This document shows positions 1 to 55,362 of a stretch of 64,000 bases of DNA, one piece after another; position 1 is the first letter of the stretch, and every line of letters starts with the position of its first letter. This DNA is from Streptomyces sp. CG1 (GTDB lineage Bacteria > Actinomycetota > Actinomycetes > Streptomycetales > Streptomycetaceae). The stretch lies in NCBI RefSeq assembly GCF_041080625.1, contig NZ_CP163518.1:6069501-6133500 (forward strand), written 5' to 3'. The notes under the pieces were generated by a model, which saw nothing but the letters and a program-made list of their open reading frames with translations, had not been told where the DNA came from and did not search any database. The position numbers were made by a program, and so were the translations under genes.

Positions 1-2198
1 TCCACGTCTGCCGGAAGCAGGTCGAAGCGGTCCGACAACAATGCGGCCGGAGCGAGCCTGTCCAGTAGACCGTCACCTGACCGCAGGCGTTCCGTGACCC
101 GGGAGGTGACGGTCTCGCTGGCGCGGGGGAGCCCGAGGTCGAGGTGCTGTGTGGTGGGCGGGGATCCACCCGTGCCGTTGGCCAGCAAGAACACATGTCG
201 GTAGGCCGTGGTGAGCAGCCCGGGGAGTCGGTCCTCGGCGCGTAGGACCCTGTCACGAAGGTCGGCCTGCTGTTCCTGATTGAACCGCTTCAGCCGGTGT
301 ACGTCGTCTCGCAGTTCGCGCATCGCCGCCAGGGTTCGTGCCAGTGCGCGGGCACGGCCGAGGGCGCCGGTGTCGGGAGCGACCAGGACCAGCGTGTTCT
401 TGTTGGTACGGCCGGACTGGTCGTATTCGCTCAGGATGCGGTGGGCTGCGTCCCTGACCGCGCCTGGGGCAGAAGGCTCTACCCGGTGCTCGGGATCGAG
501 CAGAGCGAGTGTCAGACGAGGTTCGTCGCGGACGTCCGCAGAGCTTAGGACGTCTGTCTGGGTGCGCCAGGGGGACTCGGCCGGAACCACACTCTTGGTG
601 GCCTTTTCCAGTAGCTCGGCGATCGCGTCCTCGGGTACGGCGCTCTCACGTTCGACGATGACCTTGTTCAGGTTGGGTTCGGTGGTGAAACGGTAGCGGC
701 CACCCTCGTAGCGCATGTACCAGGCGACATTCTTGACAGTGTCCCGGACATCTTCGAGAGCGCCGCGAGACAGCCCTGGTCGGCCCACACCGATGGTCAT
801 CTGGGCGTCGGATGCCCCCGGAACCTTGTCGGAGCCGAAGGAGTTGACGAAGGCTGTCGTGGCGAGCTTGGTCGCCAGCCTCAGCTTCTCGACCTCGCCG
901 CCACGGCGCTGGTCCTCGATGCGGGCTCGCGAGTCCTCGCGAATGATGTCGGCGTTCAGAGCCGCCAGGTAGGAACCACCGGTGATCTTCAATATCTCAG
1001 CCCGCACGCCGGGGTCGTGGAGAGGGATGTCCCCCGGGTGGATAAGGGGGGAGATGCGCCCTTCCGCATGGAGAGCCTTGATGCTGTGTGCGAGGGTGCG
1101 CAGTGCACCGCGTGTGCGCTGGAAGCCGGACAGCGAGCCCCAGCGATGGGTGAGCAGGTCGATGAGCTCGGGATGGAAGGGGTAAGCGGCCTCGATGCGA
1201 TCGCGGTAGACCGGATCACGGTATACAGCTGGCAGAGCATCGCCGAACTGCTCGGCGTAGTAGTCGCCGTAAGCGTCCGCGACGGTGCGGCGCTGGGCTG
1301 GAGTACCGGTGCTCTGGAACAGCCGGGTATGCAGGACAGGAAAGATGTCATCGCCTTCGACGGGCGTGATGACGTTCTCGGTCCGGCCGAATATCTTTGC
1401 CAAGCGCTCCAGCAGATCCTCGTGGTTGATACCCGTGAAATCTTCGAGGTGGGAAGCGGTGAGGGTCGCGACCAGACAGGCGCCGGGGGTGTTGGCGACC
1501 GCTGTGGTCAACTCCTTGATGAAGACGAGAGCGTTGGTGGTGAGAGCGCCTTGGTCGCCATCGGCGGTGATGGTCTTCGCCAGGTATTCGAGGGTCTCAT
1601 CCATCAGGATGAGGCAAGGCGTGTAGCGCTTGAGCAGGGCCACCAGATGAGCGGTGGAGGTCGCTTGGCGGGCCTCGTCCTCCGCGCGAACACCCTCGTA
1701 CGCTTTTTGCCCGCCAAGTTGAAAGGCGAGATGACCGAGCAGGGTACGTCCCGGGGAACGGTTCTCCTTGGTGCGATCCGGGGTCAGCGCGGAGCCGTCG
1801 AGGACTACGACGGTGGCTTGCGGAAGGCGGCCATCCTTGATGGAGGAGGAGAGCTGGCGGGCAAGTCGGGTGCGTGACAGTGCACGGGCGTTGCCAAAGA
1901 GATGGTAGGCGGACAGCAGGGTGTGGGTCTTTCCGCCACCGAATTCCGTCTGCATTCTGTGTACTGCTTTGGCGGCGGGATCGCCGGCCAGTCGATTCCC
2001 GATCTCTACAAGAGCAGTGCGCAGATTTGCTGTCAAATATGTCTTCTGTACAAAGAGTTGGGCATCGAGGTAATCCTGTGGACCCTCTCCTTTGCTGACC
2101 AAGCCCAGGTCTGCGGCGAACAGCGCCTCATCGAACGAGCCGTTGACGATGTCCAGGTGCGGAGGGGCTATCTCGTTCCAACTCTTGAGGCCGGCCAC
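1..2198 (-). CDS. DUF499-family ATPase (3' end outside window)
   Basis: Reading the complement from a GTG at 2198 gives an open frame that runs off the left edge (at least 732 residues). An AAAGGA ribosome-binding site lies about 11 bases upstream. The protein opens with a conserved-looking segment and has a P-loop (TEFGGGKTHTLL, about residue 85) followed by a Walker B-like LILMDE near residue 195, the pattern of DUF499 (COG1483) ATPases. It starts 45 bp after the stop of the DUF1156 methyltransferase and is third in a helicase, methyltransferase, ATPase order. DUF499 and DUF1156 proteins are known to be neighbours in defence islands. Its role is inferred to be a motor or sensor in anti-phage defence. 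The IS insertion upstream may be polar on it. Confidence 0.85.
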   Translation of the reverse strand, partial: MAGLKSWNEIAPPHLDIVNGSFDEALFAADLGLVSKGEGPQDYLDAQLFVQKTYLTANLRTALVEIGNRLAGDPAAKAVHRMQTEFGGGKTHTLLSAYHLFGNARALSRTRLARQLSSSIKDGRLPQATVVVLDGSALTPDRTKENRSPGRTLLGHLAFQLGGQKAYEGVRAEDEARQATSTAHLVALLKRYTPCLILMDETLEYLAKTITADGDQGALTTNALVFIKELTTAVANTPGACLVATLTASHLEDFTGINHEDLLERLAKIFGRTENVITPVEGDDIFPVLHTRLFQSTGTPAQRRTVADAYGDYYAEQFGDALPAVYRDPVYRDRIEAAYPFHPELIDLLTHRWGSLSGFQRTRGALRTLAHSIKALHAEGRISPLIHPGDIPLHDPGVRAEILKITGGSYLAALNADIIREDSRARIEDQRRGGEVEKLRLATKLATTAFVNSFGSDKVPGASDAQMTIGVGRPGLSRGALEDVRDTVKNVAWYMRYEGGRYRFTTEPNLNKVIVERESAVPEDAIAELLEKATKSVVPAESPWRTQTDVLSSADVRDEPRLTLALLDPEHRVEPSAPGAVRDAAHRILSEYDQSGRTNKNTLVLVAPDTGALGRARALARTLAAMRELRDDVHRLKRFNQEQQADLRDRVLRAEDRLPGLLTTAYRHVFLLANGTGGSPPTTQHLDLGLPRASETVTSRVTERLRSGDGLLDRLAPAALLSDRFDLLPADV

Positions 2199-2243
2199 GG
2201 GACGGACGTTCCTTTCGCTATGTGGGTGGTGCTGGAGGCGGTA

Positions 2244-4295
2244 TCAGGGCTGCGTGCCGAACAGAGTGAGCTCCTCGAAGTCCGGGGAGTACTTGGCAGC
2301 CCGTTCCGCCAGGTCGTCGCGGTTGCCGCCGAGACCGAGCAGGAGCGTGCGTTCCCGAGAGCCTTCGGGCAGGAGCTGGGTGACGGCGGTGACCAGCGCC
2401 CAGAAAGCAGGTTCGGTTCCCGCACCACTGGCGCCGAGCAGCGCGTCAAGTTCCTGGCGGCGGCCTTCGTCGTAGAGCAGGCAGGCGGAGTGCATCACGT
2501 CCACCCAGGAGGGACGCTGGCCGAGCGTGATGCCACGGCGCTCGTGTGGTCCGAGCAGCTTGTAGTCGGAGCCGGACTTGCGTATCAGTCCTCCCCGTAC
2601 GGTCAGGGCGTCCAGATGGAGATCGAACGCGCGGCACAGCATGTATGCCTCGTCTGCGGGAATCGCCAGACCGTCGTATGCCCAGCGCCAAGTGAGATAG
2701 AAGAGCGCACGACTGTCCAGGCGCTCCAGGGATTCGCCTCCAGTGAGCGACCTGGTGGCGTGTCGGGCCACAGCTTGACGAGCCAGCACCATCAGCTCGT
2801 CAACCCCCACCTCGTCTCCCGACAGGCGCAGGACACGGGAGTAGCGGGCGAAGACCTCGAAAGCAGGGCCGATGGCCGAGACGAAGTAGTCGGCGCCGGA
2901 CAGTTTCATGTCATCGAAGACAGCGAGGCGTTCGGCGATGCGGGCGTCCAGGTCGCGGACCACGTCGTCGTAGAAGCCGTCGATAGAATTGCCCACCTTA
3001 CGGCAGACCAGTACCACTGAGGAGGCCAGCACCGAACCGACGTTGTCGGTGGTGCGCCCTGTCCTTTCGGACTGCATTGGCCATGAGGTCGTGACCTTCA
3101 GGCCGGCCCGACGCAGAGCACGCAGCAGGTGTTCCCAGGCAGCGTTGTCGGTGTGGGCGAAGACCAACGAAACGATGCCGTCATCGGCGACGACTCGGGC
3201 CACCTCGTCCAGGGCACGTTGCAGACGGGCCTCGAATTCGTCGCGGGATATGTACTCGGCGGAGTCGCGCTGGGCACGGTTCTGGATTACCTCGGCCCGC
3301 TTGGGAGTCAGTGCGGTGGCGAAGAGTTCGGGGTACAGGTGTCCGATGGACCTCTTGAGCCAGACGTAGAAGAAGTCCGAGAGGTCGCCGTACTGAAAGG
3401 CGTCGTAGTAGGGCGGGTCGATGATGACTGCGTCGAACTCACCGTCGGCAAAGGGAAGGTGTTGAGCGTTGGCGCGCTGGACTTGAGAGGGATTGCCTTC
3501 GGTGGCGGCGGCGCAGTGGCGCAGGGATTGGGTGATCCAGTTGAGGGCGCTTGACCAGCCGCTTGGGCCGTCGCTGAACGGGTCGATCTCGGTGAAGTCC
3601 CAGGCCATGCGGATGGATTGCTGGGGGAAGGTGCTGCGCGGCGCTTCCACAGTGGGCCGCCAGGTGACGAAGGACGAGTTGTAATCCACCACGCGGTCGA
3701 CCGCGAGCCCCAGGTAGGTCGCCAGAGCCTGGGCCCGTTCCGGCTCCGTGCCGCTCTCCAGCATCGCCACGTGGGCGGACCGTACAGCCTGGGTCAGCAC
3801 GCCGAGGACCAACCGCTGGCGGGGGGTGAACATGCCCGCCCAGGTGTCGATGCCGTAGGTCAAGGAGCGGAGCGTACGGAACTGTGAGCGCGTCACAAGC
3901 TCGTCAGGGATGGGGCTTGTCCCATCCGGATAGCCGTCCAGACTCTCTGCCAAGATTTCGGCCTGCTCAACCGCGGCATGGTCGGCAGCCGTGGGCTCAC
4001 GGTAAGTGCGTATCCCGTCGGGATCGATGTCGAGGACCGCATAGAGGTAGTGACCAAAGCCGTGCTCACGTGCGTAGCTACGTAGTTCCCGGTCCGGACG
4101 GGCGGTTCCGCAAACCGGGCAAGTAACGGTCACCTGGGAGCCGCGACTGATCTTGGTACCGAGTTTCCAGTCGCTGCCGTCGGCAGGCGGGCCTTCTGCG
4201 AGGCGCAGTTCGATCCGGTCCCGTCGTATGTCGTAGTCGAGACGAATCCGGTGCCGGGTGGAATCGGCGAGTTTGCGCGAGGAGATCAGTGGAAT
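2244..4295 (-). pseudogene. DUF1156 adenine DNA methyltransferase, 3' part of IS-split gene
   Basis: This is the C-terminal 683 codons of a DUF1156 (COG1743-type) adenine-specific methyltransferase. The frame is open from the IS110 junction at 4295; the first usable internal start would be the GTG at 4133. It contains the second half of a zinc ribbon (CPVCG) and the catalytic DPPYYD motif followed by a typical SDFFYVWLKR stretch, then a long C-terminal region. Joining codon 4293-4295 to 5728-5730 restores a single frame of about 894 aa with the 5' part at 5728-6360. As it stands the motif I half and the DPPY half are on separate fragments, so the enzyme should be inactive unless the element excises precisely. 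Confidence 0.9.
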
Positions 4296-4344
4296 CCCTA
4301 CCTTGTTGATCGGGATGAGCGAGCCATTCGTAGGGTTGGCTCAC

Positions 4345-4486
4345 CCAGGGGTGTCGGGTGTGGCTTTCAGTGGTCTGCCGTCCGTGGCTTCCTACGATTC
4401 GCCGCCCGACACCCCCCGACGACTCGGCTGCTGATTAGGAATTGCGATCCGATCGCTGAGTAGGGACTCGCCAGCGAGGTCGTCTG
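4345..4486 (+). ncRNA. Predicted IS110 bridge RNA (target- and donor-binding loops)
   Basis: Two adjacent stem-loops lie in the left end, upstream of the transposase, where IS110-group bridge RNAs are encoded. Stem 1 pairs 4348-4358 with 4405-4415 (11 bp). Its 5' loop strand has TCAGTGG (4367-4373), identical to the left target flank. Its 3' loop strand has ACGATTC (4394-4400), the reverse complement of GAATCGT across the core and right flank. Stem 2 pairs 4418-4430 with 4472-4484 (two bulges). Its 5' loop strand GATTAGGAAT (4433-4442) equals the element's right end plus core. GTAGGGA (4460-4466) is the reverse complement of the left end TCCCTAC. An inner hairpin (4444-4456) separates the donor guides. 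All four guide matches follow the published bridge RNA logic. Transcript ends are estimates. Confidence 0.85.
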
Positions 4487-4520
4487 TGGTGCAGGTAAGC
4501 AAGCGACCCGTGGAGAGCGC

Positions 4521-5711
4521 GTGACAGCGATCTGGGCCGGCATCGATGCCGGCAGGACCCATCACCACTGCGTGGTGATCGACGACACCGGCAAGCGGCT
4601 GCTGTCGCGGCGAGTGGCCAACGACGAGACGGAGTTGCTGAAGCTCCTGGCCGACGTCCTCGCCCTGGGCGATGAGGTCACCTGGGGCATCGACCTGGCC
4701 GATGGCGGCGCCGCCCTGCTGATCGATCTGCTGCTCAACCACGGACAGCACACGCTCTACATCCCCGGCCGAGCCGTCAGCCGCGCCTCCGAGGGCTACC
4801 GGGGTGAAGGCAAGACCGACGCCAAGGACGCCGCGATCATCGCCGACCAGACCCGGCTCCGCCGGGACCTGCAACCCTTGCTTCCCGGTGACGAACTGGT
4901 CGCCGAGATCAAGGTCCACACCGGCCATCGCCGCGACCTCGCCGACGACCGCACCCGCGTGATCAACCGGCTCCACAATCACCTCACCAGCATCTTTCCC
5001 GCTCTGGACCGGGCTCTGGACCTCACGAATACCGGCCCGCTGATCCTGCTGACCGGCTACCAGACCCCAGCCGCCATCCGCAGGACCGGGGCCCGGAGGC
5101 TGGAGACCTGGCTGCGTAACCGGAAAGTCCGCGGTGCTGCCGAGCTTGCCGAGAAAGCCCTGGCGGCCGCCGAGAGCCAGCACACCAGCGCGACCGGGGA
5201 GAAGCCGACGGCCCAGCTCGTGCACACGCTCGCCAAGGAGGTGATGCGCCTCAACGAGCAGATCGCCGAAACCGACAAGCTCATCGAGGCGCGGTTTCGC
5301 GAGCACAAGCACGCCGAGGTGATCGCGAGCATGCCCGGCATCGGGCCCCTGCTCGGCGCCGAGTTCCTCGCCGCCACCGGCGGCGACATGACGGCTTTCG
5401 AGAGCCCGGACCGCCTCGCCGGGTTCGCCGGCGTCGCCCCAGCTCCGCGCGACTCGGGCAAGATCAGCGGAAATCTGCACCGGCCCAGACGTTACAGTCG
5501 TCGACTCCAGCGCGTCTTCTACACCTCCGCGCTGATCAGCATCCGCTGCTGTGACGAGTCCCGCCGCTTCTACGACCGCAAACGCGCCGAAGGCAAGCGG
5601 CACACCCAGGCCGTCCTCGCCCTTGCCCGCCGCCGGGTCAACGTCCTGTGGGCCCTGTTGCGCGACGGGCGGTGCTACGAACCCATACCCCCCGTCACGA
5701 ACGCTGCTTGA
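4521..5711 (+). CDS. IS110-family transposase (DEDD, RuvC-like)
   Basis: This is a 396-aa protein with a GTG start and a GGAGAG ribosome-binding site. The N-terminal RuvC-like domain begins with GIDAG (first catalytic Asp near residue 8) and contains GKTDAKDA. A coiled linker follows, then the C-terminal Transposase_20 domain with the helix-hairpin-helix-like MPGIGPLLGAE. The APRDSG stretch (about residues 311-316) would carry the catalytic serine of this family. Length and domain order are typical of complete IS110 transposases, and no frameshift is seen, so the element is probably active. It recombines a circular form into short target cores using the adjacent bridge RNA. Confidence 0.95.
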   Translation: MTAIWAGIDAGRTHHHCVVIDDTGKRLLSRRVANDETELLKLLADVLALGDEVTWGIDLADGGAALLIDLLLNHGQHTLYIPGRAVSRASEGYRGEGKTDAKDAAIIADQTRLRRDLQPLLPGDELVAEIKVHTGHRRDLADDRTRVINRLHNHLTSIFPALDRALDLTNTGPLILLTGYQTPAAIRRTGARRLETWLRNRKVRGAAELAEKALAAAESQHTSATGEKPTAQLVHTLAKEVMRLNEQIAETDKLIEARFREHKHAEVIASMPGIGPLLGAEFLAATGGDMTAFESPDRLAGFAGVAPAPRDSGKISGNLHRPRRYSRRLQRVFYTSALISIRCCDESRRFYDRKRAEGKRHTQAVLALARRRVNVLWALLRDGRCYEPIPPVTNAA

Positions 5712-5727
5712 CAAAGAGATTAGGAAT

Positions 5728-6360
5728 CGTCCGGCCACAGTGCGGGTCTGCACACGGCAGGGTGCGGGCCCAAAAGTACACGGCGGCCCTGGTGCCGTTC
5801 TCCCCGCGGGGAAGGGCCTCGGCAAGCCGGGCGTCCGCCGTCTCACGCACCCACTGGCCCCATTGGGCCAACTCGTCGATGAAAGGCCGTCCGCCGTCCT
5901 CGCCGACACCGCCGAAGCGAGCGGGGTACTCCAGGACACAACGCTGGATGAGATGGGCGACGGGGTTGATGTCGACAGCGGTGGTGTCGCACCCGAGGCG
6001 CGCGGCTTCCAGAGGGATCGCGCCCCCTCCTGCGAAGCAGTCAAGGACCTTGGGGCGACGCTCGGACCAAGCGACGGCGAGGGCGGTGCGCAGCGGCGCC
6101 AGATAGGCGGGCCGGGAAGAAGCCTCGAAAGGGGCGGCCTGGCTGATGTCGGTGAGCAGCCTTTCACGGGCGTGCGGGCTGTCGGTTCCCGGGTCGGGGA
6201 CCAAGCTGGCGAGCACCACGCTTCGGGCCATGGCGAGGGGCCTGCGAGCCCACCACAGGTGCATGGTGGAGATGTGGCCGTGTCGCAGATGCTTCTCCCG
6301 CGCGGAAGCGGCATTGACGGGGGCCAGCGGAAGCTTCTCCTCGATGAGCGCACGTCTCAC
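5728..6360 (-). pseudogene. DUF1156 adenine DNA methyltransferase, 5' part of IS-split gene
   Basis: This part covers the first 211 codons, beginning with GTG at 6360. That start overlaps the helicase stop (GTGA), which implies translational coupling. The segment has the DUF1156 signature (NAASAREK, HGHISTMHLWWARRP), the SAM-binding motif I (LDCFAGGGAIP) and the first half of a Cys ribbon (CADPHCG). The frame continues 11 codons into the IS before stopping, giving a predicted 221-aa truncated product. The insertion falls within the zinc-ribbon region, between GRTIP and LISSRK. Confidence 0.92.
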
Positions 6361-9300
6361 TGTGTGTCTCCTCCTGCGGCCTGCGCTGCTTCGATGACGG
6401 GTCCGGGGGCGACGCTGTAGCGCACCTCATGCGTGGGCCGGAATTTCCCGGCAAGGGCGACGGCCGGGTCCTGGATGCGGTAGAGCCGAGGATGATCGGT
6501 GGCGCAGTCGAGCACCACGTAAAGCCAGTAGGCAGGACCGAACTTGCCGGCAGCGATGTACTCGGACCAGGTGAGCTCGACGGACCCCACCCCGGCGCGT
6601 CCCTTCACCTCGATATAGCGGGTGGTCTCGGCCCCTTGGGAGACGAGGTCGAAGCCCAGGTTGTCGGCTTCGACGGACCTGAGGTCTTCGGAGCCATGTG
6701 CGTATTCGTGGTCCATGCTGACTTGGACGGCTATCCGTTCGATCTCAGGATCGCTGAGTCCGCGCCCGTTCGCCGCATGCTCGGCCCAGACATCGACAGG
6801 ACTGGACGACGCGGGCGGAGGCAGGAGCAGTGCCTGCGCGAGAACGGTGACAGGGCCGCGGTCCACTTGCCGCGTGCGAGCCGTGTCCGCGATCCGCCTG
6901 TCACGGCGTTCGAGCACTGTGCGCCGAATGAGTTCCGTCTTGCGATGACGGCCCTCGGCGCCGGCTCTTCCTTCCTCCAACTCCTCGTCAAGATCGAGCA
7001 GTTCGGCGTCGTAGCGGGCCAGCAGGGTACGGAACGAGGTAGTCAGGAACTCCTCTTGAATGTCGGCCGTGCGTGCACGGCGCTCTCGGACCTCGCACAG
7101 TCGGGCCTCGTAGACATTGGCTCGTGCCCACGTGATGAGCTGGGATTCCGGACGGGCGGGCGCCAACCCTTCTCCAGTCGGCTGTGCGGGTCGCCCAGGC
7201 AGCAGGTCGTACAGTGCGCCGCTCGTGGGGAGGAACTCGCCGGCGGCCTCGATGACGGAAGCCATGCTGCGGTGGACTGTCGAGCGATGTCCGTCGGTGA
7301 CTTCGCCTTCCAGGATGTGTAGCAGTGCGGGAGCGCTGAGTCCGGGATCATGAAAGACGGCGCCGCGCTGCAGTGAGCTCGCTGTCTGCTCGATGACCAG
7401 GTCCAGGATCGCCTCGAACAAAGGGTGTCCGGGTCCGCAGAGTTCCGCTCGGGGCGCCCCTGACTCCGCGTCCTGCGCCAGCCGTTGCACGGCGACACTC
7501 TTGTCGAAGGTGACTCGCTCGTAGGTGGGTTGCAGCTGGCGGAGCGTACCCAGATCACGGTCGCGGGCGATCAGGATGTCTGGGGTCCGGGTGACCCTGA
7601 TACTCGCGTGGTCCAGCCGCTCGCGCGCCTGGCCGTGCAGATGGTCGACGGCGTCGAGGAAGAAGCGTTTGAGGTGTTCCGGAGGCAGCCGACGTTCCTC
7701 CGCCCGGGTCGTCTCCTGGCGCTGTATCCGCCAGTCTATGTGGCCCGTGACCAGAGCCTTCTCCGAGAGTTCGCGCATGCGCGCGATGAGCTGCTCGTCG
7801 AACTGACCGTCCTCTGCGCCGAATTGGGCTGCTGCGTCCTCAGATGTCCGCTCACCTGATACGACGGCTTCGAGTAGTTCGGGGAGACGGTAGCCGGACA
7901 GTATTTCGCCGATGACGTCGAAGACCTGGTCCCCCAGAGCTTCGTTCTGGCGCATGGTCTCGATCTTTCCGAGCACCGTGGCCAGTACGTGCCCCTCCTT
8001 GGTGTTGGCCGCGACGAGATTGAAAATATGAACGTTCTCGGTCTGACCGATGCGGTGCACTCGTCCCATACGCTGTTCAAGGCGGTTGGGGTTCCATGGG
8101 ATGTCGTAGTTGACCATGAGGTGGCAGAACTGGAGGTTGATCCCTTCGCCCGCTGCCTCGGTGGCGATCATGATCTGCGCATGTTCCCGGAAGTCACGCT
8201 CGGCCTGTACCCGTTCCGCGGGACGCAGGCCACCGTGGATGACAGCCACGTCGAAGTGCGGCGACAGCTCGCGGACCAGGAAGTCCAGGGTGTCCTTGTG
8301 CTCGGTGAAAACCAGGAGCTTCTTCGAGGCGTCGTCGCCGACCCCGTACTGATCCAGGATCTTCCATAACTCCTGCAGCTTGATCTCCCCGCCCAGAAGC
8401 GCCGTCTCCTCGGCTTGCGCCAGCAGCGGGCGGAGAAGACCGAGTTCGGCCTCGATCTCCTCCGGGTCTCTGAAGAGGGAGAGCTGATCGAGAGCCTGTT
8501 CCTCGAGCGCCCAGCGCTCGTCCTCGGGACGGTCACCGTTGGTGTTCTTGTCCAGCAGGGGCGAGCCGACGTCCGTGGCTGTCGCTGTCGGCTGCTCCAG
8601 TTCCCGCTCCAGGCGCTCCACACGCCGTTGCAAGGTCCGGCAGATGGCCCGTACGGAAGAAGCCAGCCGACGCTGCATGGTCGTCAGGGCGAAGCCGGAC
8701 ACAGACGCACGGCCGCCGTCGGTGCGCTCGCGACGGATCTCGGCGAGACCCTGGGTGATGAACTGCGACACCCGGTTGTACAGGTCGAGCTCGGCACCAT
8801 CGAGGGTGTATGCGACCGTGTGCGCGACGCGTGGCCGGAAGAGGGGACGGCCGCGCAGGTCCACCATCTGTTCCTTGGTGGTCCTGGAGTAGTGGTGCGG
8901 CATGATCTCTACGCGGTCGGGGCACCGGTCGCCGTATGCGTCGCGATCCAGCAGCCGCATCAGCCCCCACAGGGACTCCTCGCGGCCCGAGTGCGGAGTG
9001 GCCGTGAGGAGCAGCAGTCGTTCAGCGTGACGTGCCACGCGCTCGGCGGCCTTGTACCGGCCGGTGCGGTTGTCGATCGCCCCGCGCTTATTGACCTTCA
9101 GGGTGTAGCCGTGGGCTTCGTCGAGGACCGCCAGGTCCCAAGGGCGTTGTGCGGCGGCGAAGGACGCGAGGACTGCCTCTGTCTTCAGCAGATCGCGGGA
9201 GACGATGAAAACGCCGTCGGACTCCCAGGGGTTGGCCATGGGGTCCGCGTCCAAGGTGTCCCTGGTGATGCGGCGGGCCGCGATCCGGAAGCGCTCGTCG

Positions 9301-9809
9301 AGTTCGCGCTGCCACTGGAAGCCGAGGTTGGCGGGGGCGACGATCAGCACCCGGTCGGCCGCACTGCGGAGTTGGAGCTCCTTAATGTAGAGCCCGGTCA
9401 TGATGGTCTTGCCGGCCCCAGGGTCATCAGCGAGCAGGAAGCGCAGCCTGGGCTCTTCCAGGAACCTGCCGTACACGGCTTCGAGTTGGTGCGGCAGCGG
9501 CTCGATACTGGAGACGGAAAGAGCCCCCATGTCGTTCTGGAAGCGTGTGCGGATCCTGCGGGCTTCCACGCCAAGCCGGAAGACTCGCGCATCCGAATCG
9601 TACGGGCGCTCTCCGCCGGCGTCGACCACCTCGATGCCCGGGAGCTCGTCCTCGGGCAGACTGACACTCCGGTAGTCCCCCGCGTCGCCTTTGACGAGAA
9701 ACTCCCAGTAGGCACCTGGTTGGACCTGGATCACGGTGACAGGCTCGGTGTGTCCCGGCAGTCGTAACCGTGCGCCCGCGATCAGCTTCTGCGGATCGAA
9801 AAGTGACAT
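6357..9809 (-). CDS. SNF2-type helicase with C-terminal DUF3883 domain
   Basis: This is a 1150-aa superfamily 2 helicase. The ATG at 9809 has GGGAGG 7 bases upstream. The P-loop is DDPGAGKTIM (about residue 130), the DEAH-type motif is LAVLDEAH, and motif III is LLTATPHSG. The second RecA lobe contains VIHGGL, ATEAAGEGINLQ and QRMGRVHRIGQ. The last about 120 residues form a DUF3883-like domain (DNLGFDLVSQG, RYIEVKGR), a presumed nuclease-related fold. It heads the operon with the DUF1156 methyltransferase and DUF499 ATPase. This layout is reminiscent of class 1 DISARM (DrmD plus DrmMI), but drmA, drmB and drmC are not in the window. It probably remodels or degrades foreign DNA that lacks the methyltransferase mark. 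Confidence 0.9.
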   Translation of the reverse strand: MSLFDPQKLIAGARLRLPGHTEPVTVIQVQPGAYWEFLVKGDAGDYRSVSLPEDELPGIEVVDAGGERPYDSDARVFRLGVEARRIRTRFQNDMGALSVSSIEPLPHQLEAVYGRFLEEPRLRFLLADDPGAGKTIMTGLYIKELQLRSAADRVLIVAPANLGFQWQRELDERFRIAARRITRDTLDADPMANPWESDGVFIVSRDLLKTEAVLASFAAAQRPWDLAVLDEAHGYTLKVNKRGAIDNRTGRYKAAERVARHAERLLLLTATPHSGREESLWGLMRLLDRDAYGDRCPDRVEIMPHHYSRTTKEQMVDLRGRPLFRPRVAHTVAYTLDGAELDLYNRVSQFITQGLAEIRRERTDGGRASVSGFALTTMQRRLASSVRAICRTLQRRVERLERELEQPTATATDVGSPLLDKNTNGDRPEDERWALEEQALDQLSLFRDPEEIEAELGLLRPLLAQAEETALLGGEIKLQELWKILDQYGVGDDASKKLLVFTEHKDTLDFLVRELSPHFDVAVIHGGLRPAERVQAERDFREHAQIMIATEAAGEGINLQFCHLMVNYDIPWNPNRLEQRMGRVHRIGQTENVHIFNLVAANTKEGHVLATVLGKIETMRQNEALGDQVFDVIGEILSGYRLPELLEAVVSGERTSEDAAAQFGAEDGQFDEQLIARMRELSEKALVTGHIDWRIQRQETTRAEERRLPPEHLKRFFLDAVDHLHGQARERLDHASIRVTRTPDILIARDRDLGTLRQLQPTYERVTFDKSVAVQRLAQDAESGAPRAELCGPGHPLFEAILDLVIEQTASSLQRGAVFHDPGLSAPALLHILEGEVTDGHRSTVHRSMASVIEAAGEFLPTSGALYDLLPGRPAQPTGEGLAPARPESQLITWARANVYEARLCEVRERRARTADIQEEFLTTSFRTLLARYDAELLDLDEELEEGRAGAEGRHRKTELIRRTVLERRDRRIADTARTRQVDRGPVTVLAQALLLPPPASSSPVDVWAEHAANGRGLSDPEIERIAVQVSMDHEYAHGSEDLRSVEADNLGFDLVSQGAETTRYIEVKGRAGVGSVELTWSEYIAAGKFGPAYWLYVVLDCATDHPRLYRIQDPAVALAGKFRPTHEVRYSVAPGPVIEAAQAAGGDTQ

Positions 9810-9981: not shown

Positions 9982-11322
9982 GTGACGGTGAGGATTCCCA
10001 GACTTGCTCAGTTGCTCGGCGCGGACTTCGACGGACTCGATCGAAGCCATCTGGTCGAGCTTTGCGACCAACGTGCGGCTGAAGACGTGGACCTGGACTT
10101 CAAGCAGGACAACACGTACACCAAGGACGCCGATGGACTGGACGAGTTCGCCAAGGACGTGACGGCCATGGCCAATGCGCGAGGCGGCCTGATCGTCGTC
10201 GGCGTCACCGAGAATGACCAGGGCAACGCGGAGCGTCTGAACCCCACCGCGATCAGCGACAAACTGCACAACCAACTCGTCCAGGCCCTACGCAGTCGTG
10301 TCTTCCCCTTCCTGCCCCCGGACTTCCGCATACGCCTGATCGCTGACAGTCCCACCACTCCGGAGTGTGGCTACATCCTGATCGGCGTTCCGCGTAGTCC
10401 GGTCGCCCCGCACGCCGTCCGCCCCACCGGAGGCAAGGGGCAGCAGCGGTACGGGTACGCGCGCCGTCTGGGCCGTACCACCGCCTGGCTGGACGAATCG
10501 GAGATCGCGGCCCTGTATCGCGACCGCTTCAAGCTGGCAGAAGACCACTCCCATCGGGTAACCGCACAGTTCGAAGACGACTGCGCATGGCTGGCTGCGC
10601 CCGTTGACGGCGGCATCAGACTGGACATTTCCCTGGTCCCCACGGGGCGAGCCGAGCGTCGCATAGACCGGAGTTTCCTCCAGGATGTGCGAGGGTTCCT
10701 CGGCGCATTGGCGCGTCCCGGGGGTGCACCGTCGGCCGCTCTGTCCCGCGACTTGCTGGGCCACGCCCCGGTGATACGCCGGGGCCGCATGCGGATCTCC
10801 GGACCTGGCGTCCACGCCGTCTGGCACTCCGACGGCAGTGCTCACCTTCAAGTCGACCTGACTTCGGAACCTGCGCCCACGGCAGAGGATGCAGCTGCCC
10901 CCGTGCTGAACCTCACTCGTCTGGAATGCAGCGTGCTCTACGGGCTTCATCTCGTGTGCGCCTATGCGGAGTGGGCCGGAGCCTACGGAGATGCCGATGT
11001 GCTCGCCGGCACTTCGTCTCCTGCCCAGGTGCTCCTAGACCGCACGCCGCTCAATGGAACCGCCCGCTTCGTGCCGGGGGTGCCGGTGCCGAGTGATACA
11101 GGAAGTCCGTGCCATCGCATCGGGTATCTGGAAGCCCTGTGCAATGGAAGCATGCAGCTGCGCACGATGGCTCACGCCATCTCGTCCGATCTGCTCGCCG
11201 ACTACGGTGTGTACGAACCGACTCTGCTGAGGCCAGACGCAACCGTGCGGTCGCAGCGCCTCGCACAGCGCGAGCGGGCCGAGATGGAAGCGTGGCTCGC
11301 GTCCACGTCGGACTCGAACTGA
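9982..11322 (+). CDS. AlbA_2 (Schlafen-like) domain protein
   Basis: This is a 446-aa protein with a GTG start. Residues about 25-150 form an AlbA_2/Schlafen-type domain: an acidic DLDFKQD motif, then NARGGLIVVGV, then a GYILIGVPRS strand. The C-terminal half is unrecognised. AlbA_2 proteins bind nucleic acid or act as nucleases or regulators and often sit in defence islands. This gene is transcribed divergently from the helicase-DUF1156-DUF499 operon, so a regulator or accessory effector of that system is the likely role. That role is inferred from context only. Confidence 0.75.
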   Translation: MTVRIPRLAQLLGADFDGLDRSHLVELCDQRAAEDVDLDFKQDNTYTKDADGLDEFAKDVTAMANARGGLIVVGVTENDQGNAERLNPTAISDKLHNQLVQALRSRVFPFLPPDFRIRLIADSPTTPECGYILIGVPRSPVAPHAVRPTGGKGQQRYGYARRLGRTTAWLDESEIAALYRDRFKLAEDHSHRVTAQFEDDCAWLAAPVDGGIRLDISLVPTGRAERRIDRSFLQDVRGFLGALARPGGAPSAALSRDLLGHAPVIRRGRMRISGPGVHAVWHSDGSAHLQVDLTSEPAPTAEDAAAPVLNLTRLECSVLYGLHLVCAYAEWAGAYGDADVLAGTSSPAQVLLDRTPLNGTARFVPGVPVPSDTGSPCHRIGYLEALCNGSMQLRTMAHAISSDLLADYGVYEPTLLRPDATVRSQRLAQRERAEMEAWLASTSDSN

Positions 11323-18460: not shown

Positions 18461-21400
18461 CTACTGGGGTTTGGGTACGTTCAGGATAGTGACGGTGTTC
18501 GTCGCACTGCCGCCTTCGTAAGGGGTGAAGCTGAAGCCGTTGCTCCCCTGGGCCCTCAAGGTGAGTCCGACGGGCACGACGTCGCTCGGGTCGTTGGACC
18601 GGTAGATGGGGGTGACTGAGTAGTCGATGGTCTCGCCTCGGTCGACTGCTGCCCTGATCTGGTCTTCGACCTTTCTCATGACCGGTGAGTTGGCGAATCG
18701 GTGCATGGTGACGAAATTGCGCGGGTCCTTGTTGGAGCCGCCTATCTGGGCGCCGAGCAAGTGGGTTTTGTTGAGCTTCTTGTATTTTTCATATCCGGGC
18801 ACCTTGGCCTGAGGGTTGGTCCTTCCGCCTGTCATGTCGGGCTCGATGGTGGCCTCCATGCCGGTCGCACGGCCACCGGGCCCGGGGGCACCGTAGCGGA
18901 CGCGACCGCCCCAGGTGACGTCAGCCTCATCGCAGGGCGCGAGCCCCATCGGGTCGCACAGGGTGTGCGGGTTGTCGACGTAGGCCACGGGGTTCGGCGC
19001 CGGATCGAGGCCGAGCGGATCCAGCGTGAGATAGCGGGCGGTTTCCGGGTCGTAGTGACGGAAGTAGTTGTGGTGCAGACCGGTTTCGGGGTCGAAGTAC
19101 TGGCACGGGAAGCGCAGCGGTGTGTAGGCCGTGGCGTCGCGGTTCCACGTGGTCGTGCCCCATAGCGTTGCTCGGGTACGCCAGGCGACGTGGCCGTCCT
19201 CATCGACGAGTTCGGTGGGGGTTCCGATCTGGTCGGTGACGATGGCGAAGAACCGCTGGTCGATGACCTCTTGAGGAGCCGAGGCGAGCGATCTGGTCTC
19301 GGTCTGCGCGAGCGGGGCGAGCCCGTCGTGATCCCAGGTGAGCGTTATGACTTCCGGCGCCCCGGTGATGTGGGTGGTCTGTTCTGTGAGGGTGCTGCCG
19401 TCCCAGCTGAAGCGGGTTTCCTCGGCGACGGTTCCGTCGGATGCGAGACGCTGCTTGGCGATGCGGCGGCCGAGCGGGTCGTACACATAGCGCCAGACGG
19501 TTCCGTCGGGGGTGGTGACCGATGCGAGCCGGTCCTCGGCATCCCACGTGTAGCGCCAGGTGTCGGGCTTGCGTGACAGGCGCGTCTTCTGCCGGAGAAT
19601 GGTGCGGCCCGCTGCGTCGTATTCGTAGCGCATGCCGCCGGCGTGGGTCAGGCGAGTGCCCGCATAGCTTCGCCGGCCCCGGGCCTCGCTGCCGGGATGC
19701 TGGTCCGGCCACGACGCGTGGGTCTGGTTGCCCGCCTCGTCGTAGGCGTAGGTCTCCGTCCAGTCCGCTGCCTGGACGGCGGTGACGCGTCCGGCTTGGT
19801 CGAGGGCGAAGGTACGGCGGCCGGTGTGCTGGTCGGTGACCGAGGTCAGGTGTCCGTCGCTGCGGTAGGCGTATGTCCGGTGGATCTGGGACTGTTCGAT
19901 GTCCGGGACGGTGAGGGTTTGACCGGTGATTCGGCCCTGGTCGTTCCAGGCGAAGTCGAGGGTGAACTGTTCGCCCAGGCTGCGCTGGATCTCACGGCCT
20001 GCCGTGTCGTGCCGGAAGGACAGCGTGCGGCCCGACATAGTGAGGGCTTCGTAGTTTCCGAAGGAGTCGTACGAGTACGTCGTTGTGACACCGGAGGGAG
20101 TGGTGCGCCGGGTGCGGCGTCCGGCGGGGTCACAGGAGGTGGTGAGGACACGGCCGTCGACGGACTCTGCCACGACGCGCCCCACCGCGTCGTACCGGTA
20201 CTCCAGCGTCGCGTCCGGGTTCGTGGCGCGGAGCAGGCGTCCGCACGGGTCGTTCTCGAAGAGGGTGGGCCGGCCGTCCACGGTCTTCTCGACGAGTTCG
20301 CCTGTGGAGTCGTAGCGATAAGTGACCGCCTGTCCGGCGGAGTTGGCCCGCCGCACAAGCCGCCCCGCCTGGTCGTATTCGTATGCCATCGTGTGGCCGT
20401 CGAAGTCGGTCTCCTCGACGAGCTGACCGGCGGGGTCGTACTGGTACGTCCAGGTCAGACCCTGCGGGTTGGTGACCTTCGTCAGCCGTCGTGCGGTGTC
20501 GTAGGAGAACGTGTGACGTACCCCGTCGGCGTCCACGCGGGCCGTCAGCAGGTCGAAGGCGTCGTACTCCGAGCGGACCGTGGCGCCGAGCGGGTCGGTG
20601 TGGAGGGTGCAGTTCCCTTCGCCGTCGAACGCCCAGGTCTCCGTCGATCCGTCGGGCCCGGTTCGCGAAGTGAGCCGGCCCTCGACGGACCACGTCAGGC
20701 GTGTCGTTTCTCCTGCCGGGCCGGTGACCAGGGCTGGTCGGCCGAAGGCGTCGTACTCCTGCTGCCTCAGTGTTCCGGATGCGCCGGTGACGGCCAGCGG
20801 TAGCCCGGCTGCGTTGGAGACGATCTCCACACGCTCTCCGAGGGGGTTCGTGACGCCCTCGATCGCGCCGTGGCGCCCGACGGTGTAGCGGGTGGCCTGC
20901 CCGCTGGGGTCGATGACGGCGGTGCGATTGCCGCGCTCGTCGTATTCATAGCGCCAGACCGCGCCATCGGCCTCCGTCACGGCCGTGGGCAGATGCAGAT
21001 CGTTGTGCTCCATGCGGATCTGACTGCCGTCGGGGCGGGTGACGCAGTTGAGGCGCCCGTTGTCGTCGTAGGCGTAGCAAGTGGTGTGCCCGAGGGGATA
21101 GGTGACGGCTACCAGTCGGTGCTTCTCGTCCCACTCCTGGCTGGTGACGTGCCCGAGGGCGTCGGTGGTGCGTATGAGACGGAAAGCCTCGTTGTGCTCG
21201 TATCGGGTGCTGTGTCCCAGGGCGTTGGTGACCGTGGTGGTGCGGGTGGCGTCGTCGTAGGTGAGGGTTCCGGACAGGTAGCCGGCGGTGCCCTCGGTTC
21301 GGATGACCCGGCCGCGCTCGTCGTAGGTGTAGGTGTACGACGTGTTGTTGCGGTCGGTCCAGGAGGTGATCCTGCCCTCGGCGTCGTAGGTGAAGCGCAG

Positions 21401-22951
21401 CGGGAGGCCGGAGGAGTTGGTGACTTCGGTGAGGTGCCCGTCTTCGTCGTATCCATAGGTGAGCAGTGTGGTCCCGTGGCCGGCCGCGTTCGCTGGATCC
21501 AGCAGACGCAGGGCCGTGATGCGAGGCAGCTCACGGTGCCGGTCGATCGCGATGCGGTAGCCGCCGGAGTGGGTGATTTCCACTGGCGTGCCGTTGTCGG
21601 TGTACTGGATCGTGATCCGCTGTCCGTTGCGGTCCACGATGAACTGCAGTGGCAGTTCAACCGCGTTGCCGTCATCGGCGGGCTGCGGCGTGTGGAAGAC
21701 GTAGGCGACGCCGGTGCCGGGGTCGACCAGTCGGAGGGCGCCGTCGGTCTCGGTGTCCCAGGAAAGCGGCATCCTGGGCCCGGCCTCGGGGTACACAGGC
21801 CCGTCCGCTTCGGGGTCCAGGAGCGGGTAGACAAGCCGGGAGCCGTCTGGTGCGGCGTAGGTGACGGAGTCATCGTCTGCCTGCAGCCGCTGATCGAGGG
21901 TGGAGGCCCACGACGGGCCGAACCAGCCGCCCCATCGGTAGGAGGATATGTGGGTGCGCTGCAGTACCAGCGGGAGTACGCCGGGCAGTTCGACATCGGT
22001 CTGTGGCAGCAGCATCGCGCCGGTGGCGACGTCGATCGGGTCGAGCTTGCACTCCTTCTCCGCCGCCTGGATCCCGGCTTCGAGCCTCTCGGCCTCACCC
22101 GGCTGCAACTTGAACCGTGACAAACCGTTTCCGCTGAGCTTCAACGTCTCGGCCAGCTTGGAGAGTTCACTGGGCTTGAGGGCCTTCAGGCCCTTGCCGA
22201 GGGCCTTACCAAGGACGCCCATCCCGACACCCATCACAGCGCCCTCGGCGAGGATGCCGGCCAACTTGCCCGGGTCCTTGAAGGCCCCCGGATCCTGCAA
22301 CAGTGTCTCGAAGGCGGAGAACTTCGCGCCGTCCGCAGCCAGTTTGCCGACCCGGGCGACTCCCCGGATCTCCTTGAGCGCCTTCAGCGCCCGCTCGACC
22401 CCTCTGATGACCTCCAATACCCCGCGCACAGTGGTGCCGAGTACGCTGCCCTCTTCCTCGATCCGGCCGATCAGGGCGACAACCTTCATGGCCCGTTCGC
22501 CGGCCATGAGGGTGGAGGCGACAGAGGAGGCGCCGGCGGTCAGGACGTCCAGGGCCAGACCGGCGATCTCGTACTCGGCGATCTCGGCGAGCATGACGCC
22601 GATCTCGGAGAGCATCTCGTGAGCCTTGTCGGCGAAGTCGTCGAGCGCCTTGGCGCCCTCGCGCAGGGCGTGTGCCATCTCAGTGGCCTGTTTGCGGGCT
22701 GCCTTCGCGCGCTTGTTGAACGCCTTGGCGGCCTTGCCCTCCCACTCCACGCCGGCCAGCGCCTTGTCGGCGGCCGTCGAGGCGTGGTCCAGGCCGGTGG
22801 CCAGGTGCCGCCACTTCTTGGCGATCTCGCGCACGCCGTCCGGGTCGACAGCGGGGTCAGAGATGCCCAGGAACTCCAGACCACTGGCGATGCTGTCGCC
22901 GAACATGTGGTTGAACTTGTTGATGTAGTGTAGGGGGTTGAGGTCGACCAC
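18461..22951 (-). CDS. Rhs-repeat polymorphic toxin with C-terminal nuclease domain
   Basis: This is a 1496-aa protein with a GTG start. Residues 1-200 form a WXG100/LXG-like helical domain (VEWEGKAAKAFNKRAK). About 310-420 is the DUF6531-type entry domain (DPIDVATGAMLLPQTDVELPG). About 430-1290 is a long series of YD/Rhs repeats (YDxxGRL pattern). The Rhs core ends with RYLTLDPLGLDPAPNPVAYVDN and DPMGL, the usual autoproteolytic boundary. The last about 140 residues are the toxin: KTHLLGAQIGGSNKDPRNFVT, then NSPVMRKVEDQI, resembling the bacterial DNA/RNA non-specific endonuclease group (Endonuclea_NS_2). The N-terminus suggests type VII-type export; the tip would be delivered into competing cells. 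Confidence 0.92.
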   Translation of the reverse strand: MVDLNPLHYINKFNHMFGDSIASGLEFLGISDPAVDPDGVREIAKKWRHLATGLDHASTAADKALAGVEWEGKAAKAFNKRAKAARKQATEMAHALREGAKALDDFADKAHEMLSEIGVMLAEIAEYEIAGLALDVLTAGASSVASTLMAGERAMKVVALIGRIEEEGSVLGTTVRGVLEVIRGVERALKALKEIRGVARVGKLAADGAKFSAFETLLQDPGAFKDPGKLAGILAEGAVMGVGMGVLGKALGKGLKALKPSELSKLAETLKLSGNGLSRFKLQPGEAERLEAGIQAAEKECKLDPIDVATGAMLLPQTDVELPGVLPLVLQRTHISSYRWGGWFGPSWASTLDQRLQADDDSVTYAAPDGSRLVYPLLDPEADGPVYPEAGPRMPLSWDTETDGALRLVDPGTGVAYVFHTPQPADDGNAVELPLQFIVDRNGQRITIQYTDNGTPVEITHSGGYRIAIDRHRELPRITALRLLDPANAAGHGTTLLTYGYDEDGHLTEVTNSSGLPLRFTYDAEGRITSWTDRNNTSYTYTYDERGRVIRTEGTAGYLSGTLTYDDATRTTTVTNALGHSTRYEHNEAFRLIRTTDALGHVTSQEWDEKHRLVAVTYPLGHTTCYAYDDNGRLNCVTRPDGSQIRMEHNDLHLPTAVTEADGAVWRYEYDERGNRTAVIDPSGQATRYTVGRHGAIEGVTNPLGERVEIVSNAAGLPLAVTGASGTLRQQEYDAFGRPALVTGPAGETTRLTWSVEGRLTSRTGPDGSTETWAFDGEGNCTLHTDPLGATVRSEYDAFDLLTARVDADGVRHTFSYDTARRLTKVTNPQGLTWTYQYDPAGQLVEETDFDGHTMAYEYDQAGRLVRRANSAGQAVTYRYDSTGELVEKTVDGRPTLFENDPCGRLLRATNPDATLEYRYDAVGRVVAESVDGRVLTTSCDPAGRRTRRTTPSGVTTTYSYDSFGNYEALTMSGRTLSFRHDTAGREIQRSLGEQFTLDFAWNDQGRITGQTLTVPDIEQSQIHRTYAYRSDGHLTSVTDQHTGRRTFALDQAGRVTAVQAADWTETYAYDEAGNQTHASWPDQHPGSEARGRRSYAGTRLTHAGGMRYEYDAAGRTILRQKTRLSRKPDTWRYTWDAEDRLASVTTPDGTVWRYVYDPLGRRIAKQRLASDGTVAEETRFSWDGSTLTEQTTHITGAPEVITLTWDHDGLAPLAQTETRSLASAPQEVIDQRFFAIVTDQIGTPTELVDEDGHVAWRTRATLWGTTTWNRDATAYTPLRFPCQYFDPETGLHHNYFRHYDPETARYLTLDPLGLDPAPNPVAYVDNPHTLCDPMGLAPCDEADVTWGGRVRYGAPGPGGRATGMEATIEPDMTGGRTNPQAKVPGYEKYKKLNKTHLLGAQIGGSNKDPRNFVTMHRFANSPVMRKVEDQIRAAVDRGETIDYSVTPIYRSNDPSDVVPVGLTLRAQGSNGFSFTPYEGGSATNTVTILNVPKPQ

Positions 22952-26388: not shown

Positions 26389-27063
26389 TTAGCCGGTGAA
26401 CCGTCGCAGCCGGGAGAGGAACCCGTCGATGTCGGCCAGCTCGGGGGCGTCAGCGCCGCGTAGGCGCCGTGTAGCCTCGCGGATGTCTTCCGCAGCAGCC
26501 ACGGCTTCGGAGACGTAGATGTCGGAGGCCGGACCGACCGCGTTGGCCAGGCTCTGCTCGGGTGACATGTACGGCGGGGTGCCGACCGTCATGCCTTCCT
26601 GGGTGAGCCGCGGGTGGATACCTGCGCCGAGGAGCGCGGCGACACCGAAGTCGAGGACCTTAACCACGCCGTCAACGGCGATCATGAGATTGGCGGGCTT
26701 GATGTCGCGGTGGACCACGTCATGCCGGTGAACGACGTCCAGCACGGACGCGATCTGGGCGCCGGCGGCAGCTGCCCAAGAGACGGCGAGCCGAGCGGCG
26801 ATGTAATCCGTGTCCTCGATGAAGCCGGACAGTTCTCGCCCGCGCAGCAGCTGCATCACGACATACAGGCGTCCCGATTCCTCATCGATGCCTGTGTCGT
26901 AGACGGCGGGGACCCCGAGGTGTTCGAGGGCGGCCGTGGTGCGCACTTCGCGGAGGAAGCGGTCGCGCCGGTTCTGTAACGCCTCGGCGGCACCGAATGG
27001 CCGATACCCGACAGTGGGTGGCGCGGAGGTGACCTTGACCGGGTCCCGTTGCGGCTGGTCCGC
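26389..27063 (-). pseudogene. Serine/threonine protein kinase remnant
   Basis: The complement carries a kinase core: HRHDVVHRDIKPANLMI (catalytic loop), VLDFGVAAL (DFG), and GTPPYMSPEQ (activation segment). The N-lobe is degenerate: the frame opens after two stops near 27064, with no glycine-rich loop. Just after the PASDIY segment the C-lobe is deleted and joins a tail of about 40 residues (DIREATRRLRG...FLSRLRRFTG). An internal GTG at 26946 would give 185 aa, but key lobes are missing. Confidence 0.75.
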
Positions 27064-27262
27064 TTACTACCGATGTGGCGTCGAGATCAGCGCGATCCGG
27101 GGGTGTGTACGTGATCTGGCTGCACCTGTATGTGCCGTGCCGAGCAACTCGCTGCTCACTCCGCACCGCGACACGAAGGGTGCCCAGGTCAGGAGCCCCA
27201 CAGGATCTGGATACACCGCCACCGAGACGCTCTTCGCGCAGCGGCACAGCGGAGCTGCGGGC

Positions 27263-51619: not shown

Positions 51620-51660
51620 GAACTGATCACCCTCTAGCAGCCCACGTGGAACTGATCACC
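51620..51660. repeat. Pair of 12-bp direct repeats downstream of the relaxase
   Basis: GAACTGATCACC occurs at 51620-51631 and 51649-51660, spaced 29 bp start to start, at and just beyond the 3' end of the relaxase gene. Possible protein-binding repeats or a duplication footprint. Confidence 0.5.
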
Positions 51661-53359
51661 GTCGCTGTGCGGGCGACGCCTTTGGGGCGATGGCTGCCGG
51701 ATGGGCCGGAGGAGCGGGGCGCTGTACGGCGCTGCTGGTTTGTGCGGCACGGGCGCCAAGACTGGGTGCGTGGCGTTCGCCGAGGCGCTGGATGCGCCAG
51801 GTGAGGACTTGTGCCGGTGAGCGGGCATCGTCCAGCGGGCGTTGCCCGGCTGCTTGTTGGAGCAGGTCGGCCGGATCGTGCCCCTTGCGCTGGGCGTCCG
51901 CGAGCACAGCCGTCAGTGCGTCCCAGGCGGGCTCGTCGAGGATCTGTTCAGCGTGCGCGGGCACGGTCTTGCGCAGGTGCTCGGCATAGCGGCGCGCGGT
52001 GTCGGCGGGCGGCTTGCGCTCGGCGAGTCGTGCCAGCGGGGCCGGCGCGGCCTGCCGGTAGGCGGCCTGGAGGTGGAGCAGGGTCTGCTGGGCTGCGGCG
52101 ACCTGCTGGTCGTGGTGGCGCAGAGCGCTGTGGCGGCGCACGGCGATGACGGTGAGGATCGCGGCGTCCACGAGCATCGCGATGAGGCCGTCGTCGGCGG
52201 GGTGGGTGCCCAGGGTCTTGCACGCGCCGCGCAACGCACGGGCGTGCTGGTGGTCCACGCGGGCACGGGTGTTGACCGCGTACTCGAACGCGAAGGCCGC
52301 CTTGCGCAGCTCGGCGCGGAAGTCGGTGGGGGCGAGGGCGGGCAGGGCGTAGAGGATCTCCCCGAACGCCACCAGGTGCGCCGAGGTCGGCGCGGCGGGG
52401 TCCTGGTCCTGGGCGAGGTGGTGAGGGATGCGCTCGATGGCGGCGGTGGCCTGGTGCCACGGGTTCGGCCGGGGTCGGCCTGCCGGCTGCGGGGCAGTCG
52501 GTTCGGTGGGTTCGGTGGCCAGGCGTTCTTGGATCTTGGGCAGGGACAGGTCGGTGGCGAGAGCGGTGCCGGAGTACCAGATGGGTTTGCTGTCGGCGGT
52601 GTCGCCGGGCAGGGCGACCTTGTAGCCGTTCAGGTCGCCGGAGGGCAGGGTGCGGGTTTCGACCTGCAGGCCCGCATCGGCGAGCAGGCCCAGGAACTCC
52701 TCCACGCTGTGAGCATGGGAGAGCGCGGTGCGCACCGTGAGGCGCAGCTGTTCGCGTACGGTGCGGCTGTGTCCGTTGCGGGCGGCCTTCTCCGCCTCTG
52801 CCCGGGTGGGGCGCTTGGTGGCGGGCCAGGCGTCACGATCGCGGTCGACCTGGTGGAGGCCGAAGTCGGTCTCGATCCTGGTGAGTTCGGTCATGGCGCG
52901 GTGGTAGTCGTTCCAGTTGCGCGGCGGGCGCAGGTCCCCGCGCATTTTCGTGGCGACGATGTGGATGTGGTCGTCCGCGTGGCGCACGGCGATCCAGCGG
53001 CAGCCGTCCGGATCGCCGGCGGGAGCGATGCCGGTGGCGTGAAGGACGCGGCGGGCGATGGTGGCCCACTCGGCGTCGCTCAGGGAGCGGTCCCCGGGCG
53101 CCGTGCGCAGCGAGCAGTGCCACACGTGCCCCTCCGGTGCCTGGTCACCGGCCTGCTTCACCCGCAGGTCGAGTGCCTGGACGAGCTGGTCCATCCGGTG
53201 CTCGTGGCCCGGGCTGCCCTTCGGGCCAGGGTCCGGGGCGAAGCCGTCCCAGGAGGCGACGATGTGCTGGTCGGTGTGCTCGTTGGCACGGCCTTTGTCG
53301 AACAGGTAGACCAAGACACCGCGTGTGTTGCTGCCCGGCTTGACGATGTTCGCGATCAC
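51656..53359 (-). CDS. Relaxase/mobilization nuclease (MobA/VirD2 family)
   Basis: This is a 567-aa protein starting at ATG 53359, overlapping the MobC stop (ATGA). The N-terminus is MIANIVKPGSNTRGVLVYLF. The metal-binding three-His motif is HADDHIHIVATKM (about residues 124-136), preceded by WHCSLRTAPGD. The Tyr nucleophile should be among the early Tyr residues. The C-terminal 250 residues are helical and Ala/Arg-rich. Relaxases nick oriT and pilot single-stranded DNA in conjugation. This is unusual for Streptomyces integrative elements, which mostly use double-stranded TraB transfer. Confidence 0.92.
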   Translation of the reverse strand: MIANIVKPGSNTRGVLVYLFDKGRANEHTDQHIVASWDGFAPDPGPKGSPGHEHRMDQLVQALDLRVKQAGDQAPEGHVWHCSLRTAPGDRSLSDAEWATIARRVLHATGIAPAGDPDGCRWIAVRHADDHIHIVATKMRGDLRPPRNWNDYHRAMTELTRIETDFGLHQVDRDRDAWPATKRPTRAEAEKAARNGHSRTVREQLRLTVRTALSHAHSVEEFLGLLADAGLQVETRTLPSGDLNGYKVALPGDTADSKPIWYSGTALATDLSLPKIQERLATEPTEPTAPQPAGRPRPNPWHQATAAIERIPHHLAQDQDPAAPTSAHLVAFGEILYALPALAPTDFRAELRKAAFAFEYAVNTRARVDHQHARALRGACKTLGTHPADDGLIAMLVDAAILTVIAVRRHSALRHHDQQVAAAQQTLLHLQAAYRQAAPAPLARLAERKPPADTARRYAEHLRKTVPAHAEQILDEPAWDALTAVLADAQRKGHDPADLLQQAAGQRPLDDARSPAQVLTWRIQRLGERHAPSLGARAAQTSSAVQRPAPPAHPAAIAPKASPAQRR

Positions 53360-54024: not shown

Positions 54025-54151
54025 GGATCGGTTCTCCGTGGGGTGCTGGTGCCGGGGGTTTCGCTGTGCGCGGCTCCCGTGTCCCGCGCTTGTCTGCCCG
54101 GGGCACGGGGTGAGCCGGAAAGGGGTGGGGCGATCGGTACGTTTGCGGGGG

Positions 54152-55264: not shown

Positions 55265-55362
55265 GTCAGTTATCTCCAGGGGTGATGCGGTGGGGCGGAA
55301 GCGCGGGAAGTCAGGGGCGCGACGGCGGTCCCCGAGGGCGGGCGGGGCGTGTGTGTGAACGC

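Follow-up and report, generated by a model that had tools for sequence, protein, structure and literature searches.

An IS110-family bridge-RNA element splitting a predicted Hma defence gene of Streptomyces sp. CG1 at a probable off-target site

The Hma locus and its insertion

The stretch of DNA analysed here, referred to as the window, comprises 64,000 nucleotides of the 11.1 Mb genome of Streptomyces sp. CG1. Its left part contains three leftwards-transcribed genes, the middle one of which is interrupted by a rightwards-transcribed insertion sequence:

1..2240, minus strand: hmaC, ATPase, continuing beyond the window (PADLOC match)
2244..4296, minus strand: 3' part of hmaB, methyltransferase (PADLOC match, restored frame)
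4297..5728, plus strand: IS110-family element (ends set by comparison of genome copies)
4521..5711, plus strand: IS110 recombinase (transposase), 396 aa (domain matches, reading frame)
5729..6360, minus strand: 5' part of hmaB, DUF1156 (domain and PADLOC matches)
6357..9809, minus strand: hmaA, SNF2-type helicase, frame intact (domain and PADLOC matches)

HmaA, HmaB and HmaC are found together, with PADLOC model matches at E = 7.7e-191 for HmaA, 2.2e-70 and 4.4e-39 for the two parts of HmaB, and 1.4e-126 for HmaC, and the locus is classed as an Hma system. Hma is a new candidate defence system of the PADLOC paper (PMC8565338, consulted in part), and the present locus resembles it in having adjacent genes for a helicase, a methyltransferase and an ATPase that match the PADLOC models, and differs in that hmaB is split. 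The insertion has probably disabled the predicted defence system, a loss of function suggested by the broken gene.

The remainder of the window includes a Schlafen/AlbA_2-domain protein divergent from hmaA (9982-11322), a 1496-aa RHS-repeat protein (18461-22951) whose start is WXG100-like and whose C-terminal domain is Endonuclea_NS_2, and an NB-ARC protein with tetratricopeptide repeats (26936-30043). A relaxase, a DUF2637 protein and a phage-type integrase are present at 51656-61980, and the window may therefore extend into an integrative element.

The IS110-family element is complete at 1432 bp, counting one TC core. Its recombinase matches the DEDD_Tnp_IS110 and Transposase_20 domains (PF01548 and PF02371; E = 7.3e-49 and 7e-21, each passing its curated cut-off), and its only sequence relatives in the PDB at E <= 0.001 are ISCro4, over a partial alignment, and IS621. 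There are 224 bp to the left of the transposase gene and 17 bp to the right of its stop codon, which places the element in the IS110 rather than the IS1111 group; consistent with this, its RNA region lies at the left end. By its domains, ends and guides it is a real and ordinary IS110 bridge-RNA element. Its named relatives are mostly from Streptomyces, and a literature search by title found no paper on this particular element.

Seven copies are present in the genome and are identical over all 1432 bp, except for a single base in L007, and are therefore likely to have spread recently. All seven have TC at both junctions, and the right junction reads GATTAGGAA-TC, which defines the core in the window:

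4295..4296, plus strand: left core TC (copy comparison)
5718..5728, plus strand: right end GATTAGGAA and right core TC (copy comparison)

Elements of the relatives in this subfamily often lie inside other mobile genes (L002:1501-2935 and L007:1501-2933, among others), and the L024 element directly adjoins a second left-end-like sequence. Another genome carries a solo left end (L141:1501-1713), 99% identical and with a whole bridge RNA although no transposase gene lies behind it; this orphan bridge RNA is at a canonical TCAGTGG-TC site.

The original prediction, that an IS110 insertion splits a DUF1156 gene, agrees with the domains, the copy comparison and the PADLOC matches of both HmaB parts. 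Its proposed deletion of 4296-5727, which restores the frame GRTIP-LISSRK, yields the same product as removal of 4297-5728. The joined flanks form a single open frame of 894 aa through this junction, encoding an HmaB-like (DUF1156) protein whose best relative, from a Streptomyces, is also 894 aa long and 92% identical. The same junction had been predicted for uninterrupted relatives, and among the best 120 of 5227 homologues all 120 cross its 12 columns ungapped, with a hydrophobic residue before the junction proline in every one.

The bridge RNA and its usual targets

The left end of the element contains a bridge RNA region with two guide-bearing stem-loops:

4324..4490, plus strand: bridge RNA region, extent as aligned (alignment, consensus, covariation)
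4348..4415, plus strand: target-binding stem-loop (helices 2 and 3 of the consensus)
4367..4375, plus strand: left target guide (LTG), TCAGTGG and core TC (match to flank)
4391..4399, plus strand: right target guide (RTG), CCTACGATT, reverse complement AATCGTAGG (match to flank)
4418..4484, plus strand: donor-binding stem-loop (helices 4 and 5 of the consensus)
4433..4442, plus strand: left donor guide (LDG), GATTAGGAAT (equals the element's right end)
4460..4466, plus strand: right donor guide (RDG), GTAGGGA (complementary to TCCCTAC at the left end)

Alignment of 50 left ends gives a consensus with a 5' stem-loop followed by target-type and donor-type stem-loops. Cells are paired on this consensus in 98.9% of cases compared to 96.1% in shuffled alignments, and 10 of 37 pairs are changed on both sides compared to 4.6 after shuffling, with none of 500 shuffles doing as well on either measure. 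Sliding the partners by one column reduces pairing to 42-44%, although this control is biased towards the structure, which was built from the same alignment. The single-sequence fold of the window RNA is not significant (z = -1.31; 23 of 200 shuffles as good), and covariation is therefore relied on instead; an Rfam search of the window gave no match reaching the gathering score. The stem-loops predicted for the left end, with four guide segments at the positions claimed, are thus conserved by covariation among relatives of the element, and the RNA is predicted to be expressed.

The donor guides, GATTAGGAAT and GTAGGGA, match the element's own ends in the window sequence, a correspondence seen by direct comparison. 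The target guides were compared across relatives, with 119 loci giving 114 with a left flank and left guide, and these 92 unique sites. The left guide matches its own flank at 7 of 7 positions in 60 sites and at 6 of 7 in 18, and ungapped matching is poor in the other 14, some of them without explanation. A match at 6-7 positions in 78 of 92 sites was equalled in none of 20,000 shuffles (mean match 5.97, against 3.54 shuffled), the parsing rules having been tuned on the loci used for matching. The same is seen when the core classes TC (46 sites) and GC (41 sites) are taken separately and when each distinct guide contributes one site (41). For the right guide, 53 of 71 sites agree in four or all five positions. 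Targets thus covary with the target guides over the relatives, the hmaB site conforming only with two extra bases.

An enlarged set of 185 loci (179 with a transposase hit, 171 parsed) gave 127 unique sites, of which 94 match ungapped at 7 or more of 9 positions, 17 fall into a loose gapped class, and 16 into neither. Ungapped matching is found in 42 of 49 sites with recombinase identity of at least 72%, in 49 of 56 at 66-72%, and in 3 of 22 below 66%, where guide parsing is least reliable.

The guide TCAGTGGTC is associated with 13 unique sites, 12 of them contiguous (some with one mismatch); the exception is the site in hmaB. Reconstruction of 13 empty sites indicates what the usual target is. 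In L005, L006, L011, L012 and L041 the junction coincides exactly with the Asp-His-stop that closes a reading frame, and the flanks of these five are interrelated, with 66-87% identity over 212-941 bp; of the two whose frames were searched, L012 matches DDE_Tnp_1 above the curated cut-off and L005 below it. The stop codon of transposase-like genes is thus the site of at least two of the six other genome copies (L005 and L006). A frame also ends in Asp-His-stop in L042 and L043, but in other genes, and the ends of L002 and L007 are similar, sharing only a short similarity. We infer from the Asp-His-stop frames at the junctions that the guide is suited to transposase gene tails, with hmaB as a near-match. 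Near-matches to the programmed target with up to two mismatches are not enriched in the element's own genome (74, against 100 for the reversed pattern). Sites reading TCAGTGGTCG[A/T] in this genome are unoccupied in six cases and occupied in four, and those reading TCAGTGGNNTCG[A/T] unoccupied in two and occupied in one, all small numbers.

The hmaB site and targets with extra bases

The left junction reads TCAGTGG-TC in L002, L003, L005, L006 and L007 and TCAGTGC-TC in L004, and the window copy in hmaB is alone among the seven in reading TCAGTGG-AA-TC:

4286..4292, plus strand: left target TCAGTGG in hmaB (identical to LTG positions 1-7)
4293..4294, plus strand: AA, the two additional bases that separate left target and core (in no other genome copy of the element)

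The AA is attributed to hmaB itself, since an empty site lacking it would be two bases shorter with the frame broken, and all 120 homologues listed are ungapped here. An empty hmaB allele was not found at the DNA level, where a search at E <= 1e-60 among 392 genomes of the genus matched this part of hmaB only in the genome itself; a protein-level search at E <= 1e-100 returned this genome and two relatives with 33-34% identity, and 203 matches in plasmid records are all below 60% identity. The guide match to TCAGTGG had been recognized in the original prediction, which overlooked the AA before the core. Its statement that the element was aimed at this site by its own RNA stands as to dependence on the guide, and 'aimed' is replaced by 'off-target' because the six other copies are at TCAGTG(G/C)-TC with no extra bases, the cognate site being TCAGTGG-TC.

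Targets of this kind also occur elsewhere in the subfamily. Six of the 127 unique sites, all within the loose gapped class of 17, match their guide at 9 of 9 positions only after removal of one or two target bases: the window copy (L001) and L068 with two extra bases, and L019, L065, L106 and L112 with one each. Mispaired guides and flanks reach the same gapped match in 25 of 13,562 pairs. L072, L074 and L173, among others, were considered as gapped sites and rejected, as they look like guide-register errors. In the five gapped sites besides hmaB the core is preceded by G, C or T, and never by the A of a GGAA-type donor, which places the exchange at the normal core in these five, the right end being observed in three (L065, L106 and L112) and deduced from the donor guide in the other two.

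At hmaB the target and donor have GGAATC in common, which hides the exact point of exchange; by analogy with the five other gapped sites, it would be at TC rather than elsewhere in GGAATC. The shared bases also accommodate an account in which pairing is unbulged and both partners are cut at a non-canonical AA core, two bases before the normal one, since the target TCAGTGG-AA and the donor GATTAGG-AA would give an identical product. This is unlikely, as AA would be a mismatch to the TC core of the guide, the cut in the donor would need shifting too, and exchange at the normal core is needed at the five other gapped sites in any case. Because GGAATC constitutes the last six bases of the left half of the donor, and low-frequency donor-like off-targets are reported for IS621 in the consulted part of PMC11208160, hmaB could instead have been recognized mainly by its likeness to the donor and not through the target guide. 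We regard this as decidedly unlikely given that the full TCAGTGG left target is present with TC-GT to its right, and that the gapped 9 of 9 match is so rare among mispaired guides.

We therefore favor, with a probability of about 0.8, the interpretation that hmaB served the IS110 element as an off-target in which two additional bases separate the left target from the core. A circular form of this recently multiplied element would have recombined into hmaB, with the bridge RNA holding the circle junction in its donor loop and the target in its target loop, and the recombinase exchanging strands at the TC core. The RNA would be written for TCAGTGG-TC followed by approximately GTAGG, as for example in the last codons of transposase genes; TCAGTGG-AA-TC-GT would occur in hmaB by chance, inside a conserved Ile-Pro-Leu stretch, and be used as an off-target, presumably with a bulge in the guide pairing.

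Joining the ends in the circular form is predicted to assemble a promoter from two boxes:

4299..4304, plus strand: TACCTT, -10-like box of the circle-junction promoter (junction reconstruction)
5708..5713, plus strand: TTGACA, -35-like box, overlapping the stop codon (junction reconstruction)

Of 65 unique circle junctions that were reconstructed, 64 have TTGACA-like and TA[CT][CG]TT-like boxes 17-18 bases apart, and 6 of 112 integrated left junctions have such a match, although the pattern was chosen after inspection of the window and donor recognition also constrains the junction. The promoter-like boxes are united only in the circular form and are split once the element is integrated; a promoter rebuilt across the circular-form junction is described in the consulted part of Durrant et al. 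(PMC11208160).

The original prediction also raised the possibility of a reversible off-switch for a defence operon, in which case the element would be kept in hmaB and toggle the system as it inserts and precisely excises. On paper the insertion is precise, scarless excision is stated for IS110 elements in the same part of PMC11208160, and recombinase and RNA could be supplied in trans by the six near-identical copies. Such a switch is nonetheless very improbable and its proposal is not borne out: there is a single event at a non-canonical site, the promoter boxes are apart in the integrated state, and no second IS110 copy was found in any hma gene among the 124 loci compared (L125-L185 left out), whose flanks are mostly ~1.5 kb and whose hma protein matches are confined to the genome itself and two loci chosen as hmaB relatives. 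The locus is better described as a mobile element splitting a predicted defence gene, probably by accident.

More generally, we tentatively suggest that the subfamily tolerates one or two extra left-target bases as a regular minor mode in nature, with targets wider than the guide predicts. This would be in keeping with Durrant et al. 2024 (PMC11208160), in the consulted part of which some IS621 off-targets seemed tolerant of target insertions. If true, the wider target set brings host genes such as hmaB within range of an element whose guide fits transposase tails, and allows it to disable them. The natural acceptance rate of extra-base targets matters for how specific bridge recombinases are when used for genome writing. 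The present genome offers a clean natural example: the guide, the sites it normally uses and a single off-target are all legible in it.

Comparison with known systems

IS492 of Pseudoalteromonas is likewise a member of the IS110 family and is said to excise precisely; its excision has reportedly been measured, whereas the present element is known from its sequence. The seekRNAs of IS1111 and IS110 elements (Siddiquee et al. 2024, PMC11187229, consulted in part) have been shown by experiment, and for the IS110 type the likeness is that the target is selected by an RNA originating in the non-coding stretch that precedes the transposase gene. The elements and targets are different, and the RNA described here is known from sequence alone.

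The closest correspondence is with IS621 and the IS110-group bridge RNAs, as described in the consulted part of PMC11208160. The shared features are a left-end RNA with a 5' stem-loop and two guide loops, a DEDD recombinase (judged here from domains and the partial ISCro4 alignment), left and right guides for both target and donor, a dinucleotide core, a circle-junction promoter, and reported off-targets with target insertions. IS621 differs in its core, CT rather than TC, and in its targets, and the present element constitutes a natural off-target inside a defence gene. What the Streptomyces element adds to this is a natural site with two extra bases and the nature of the usual target.
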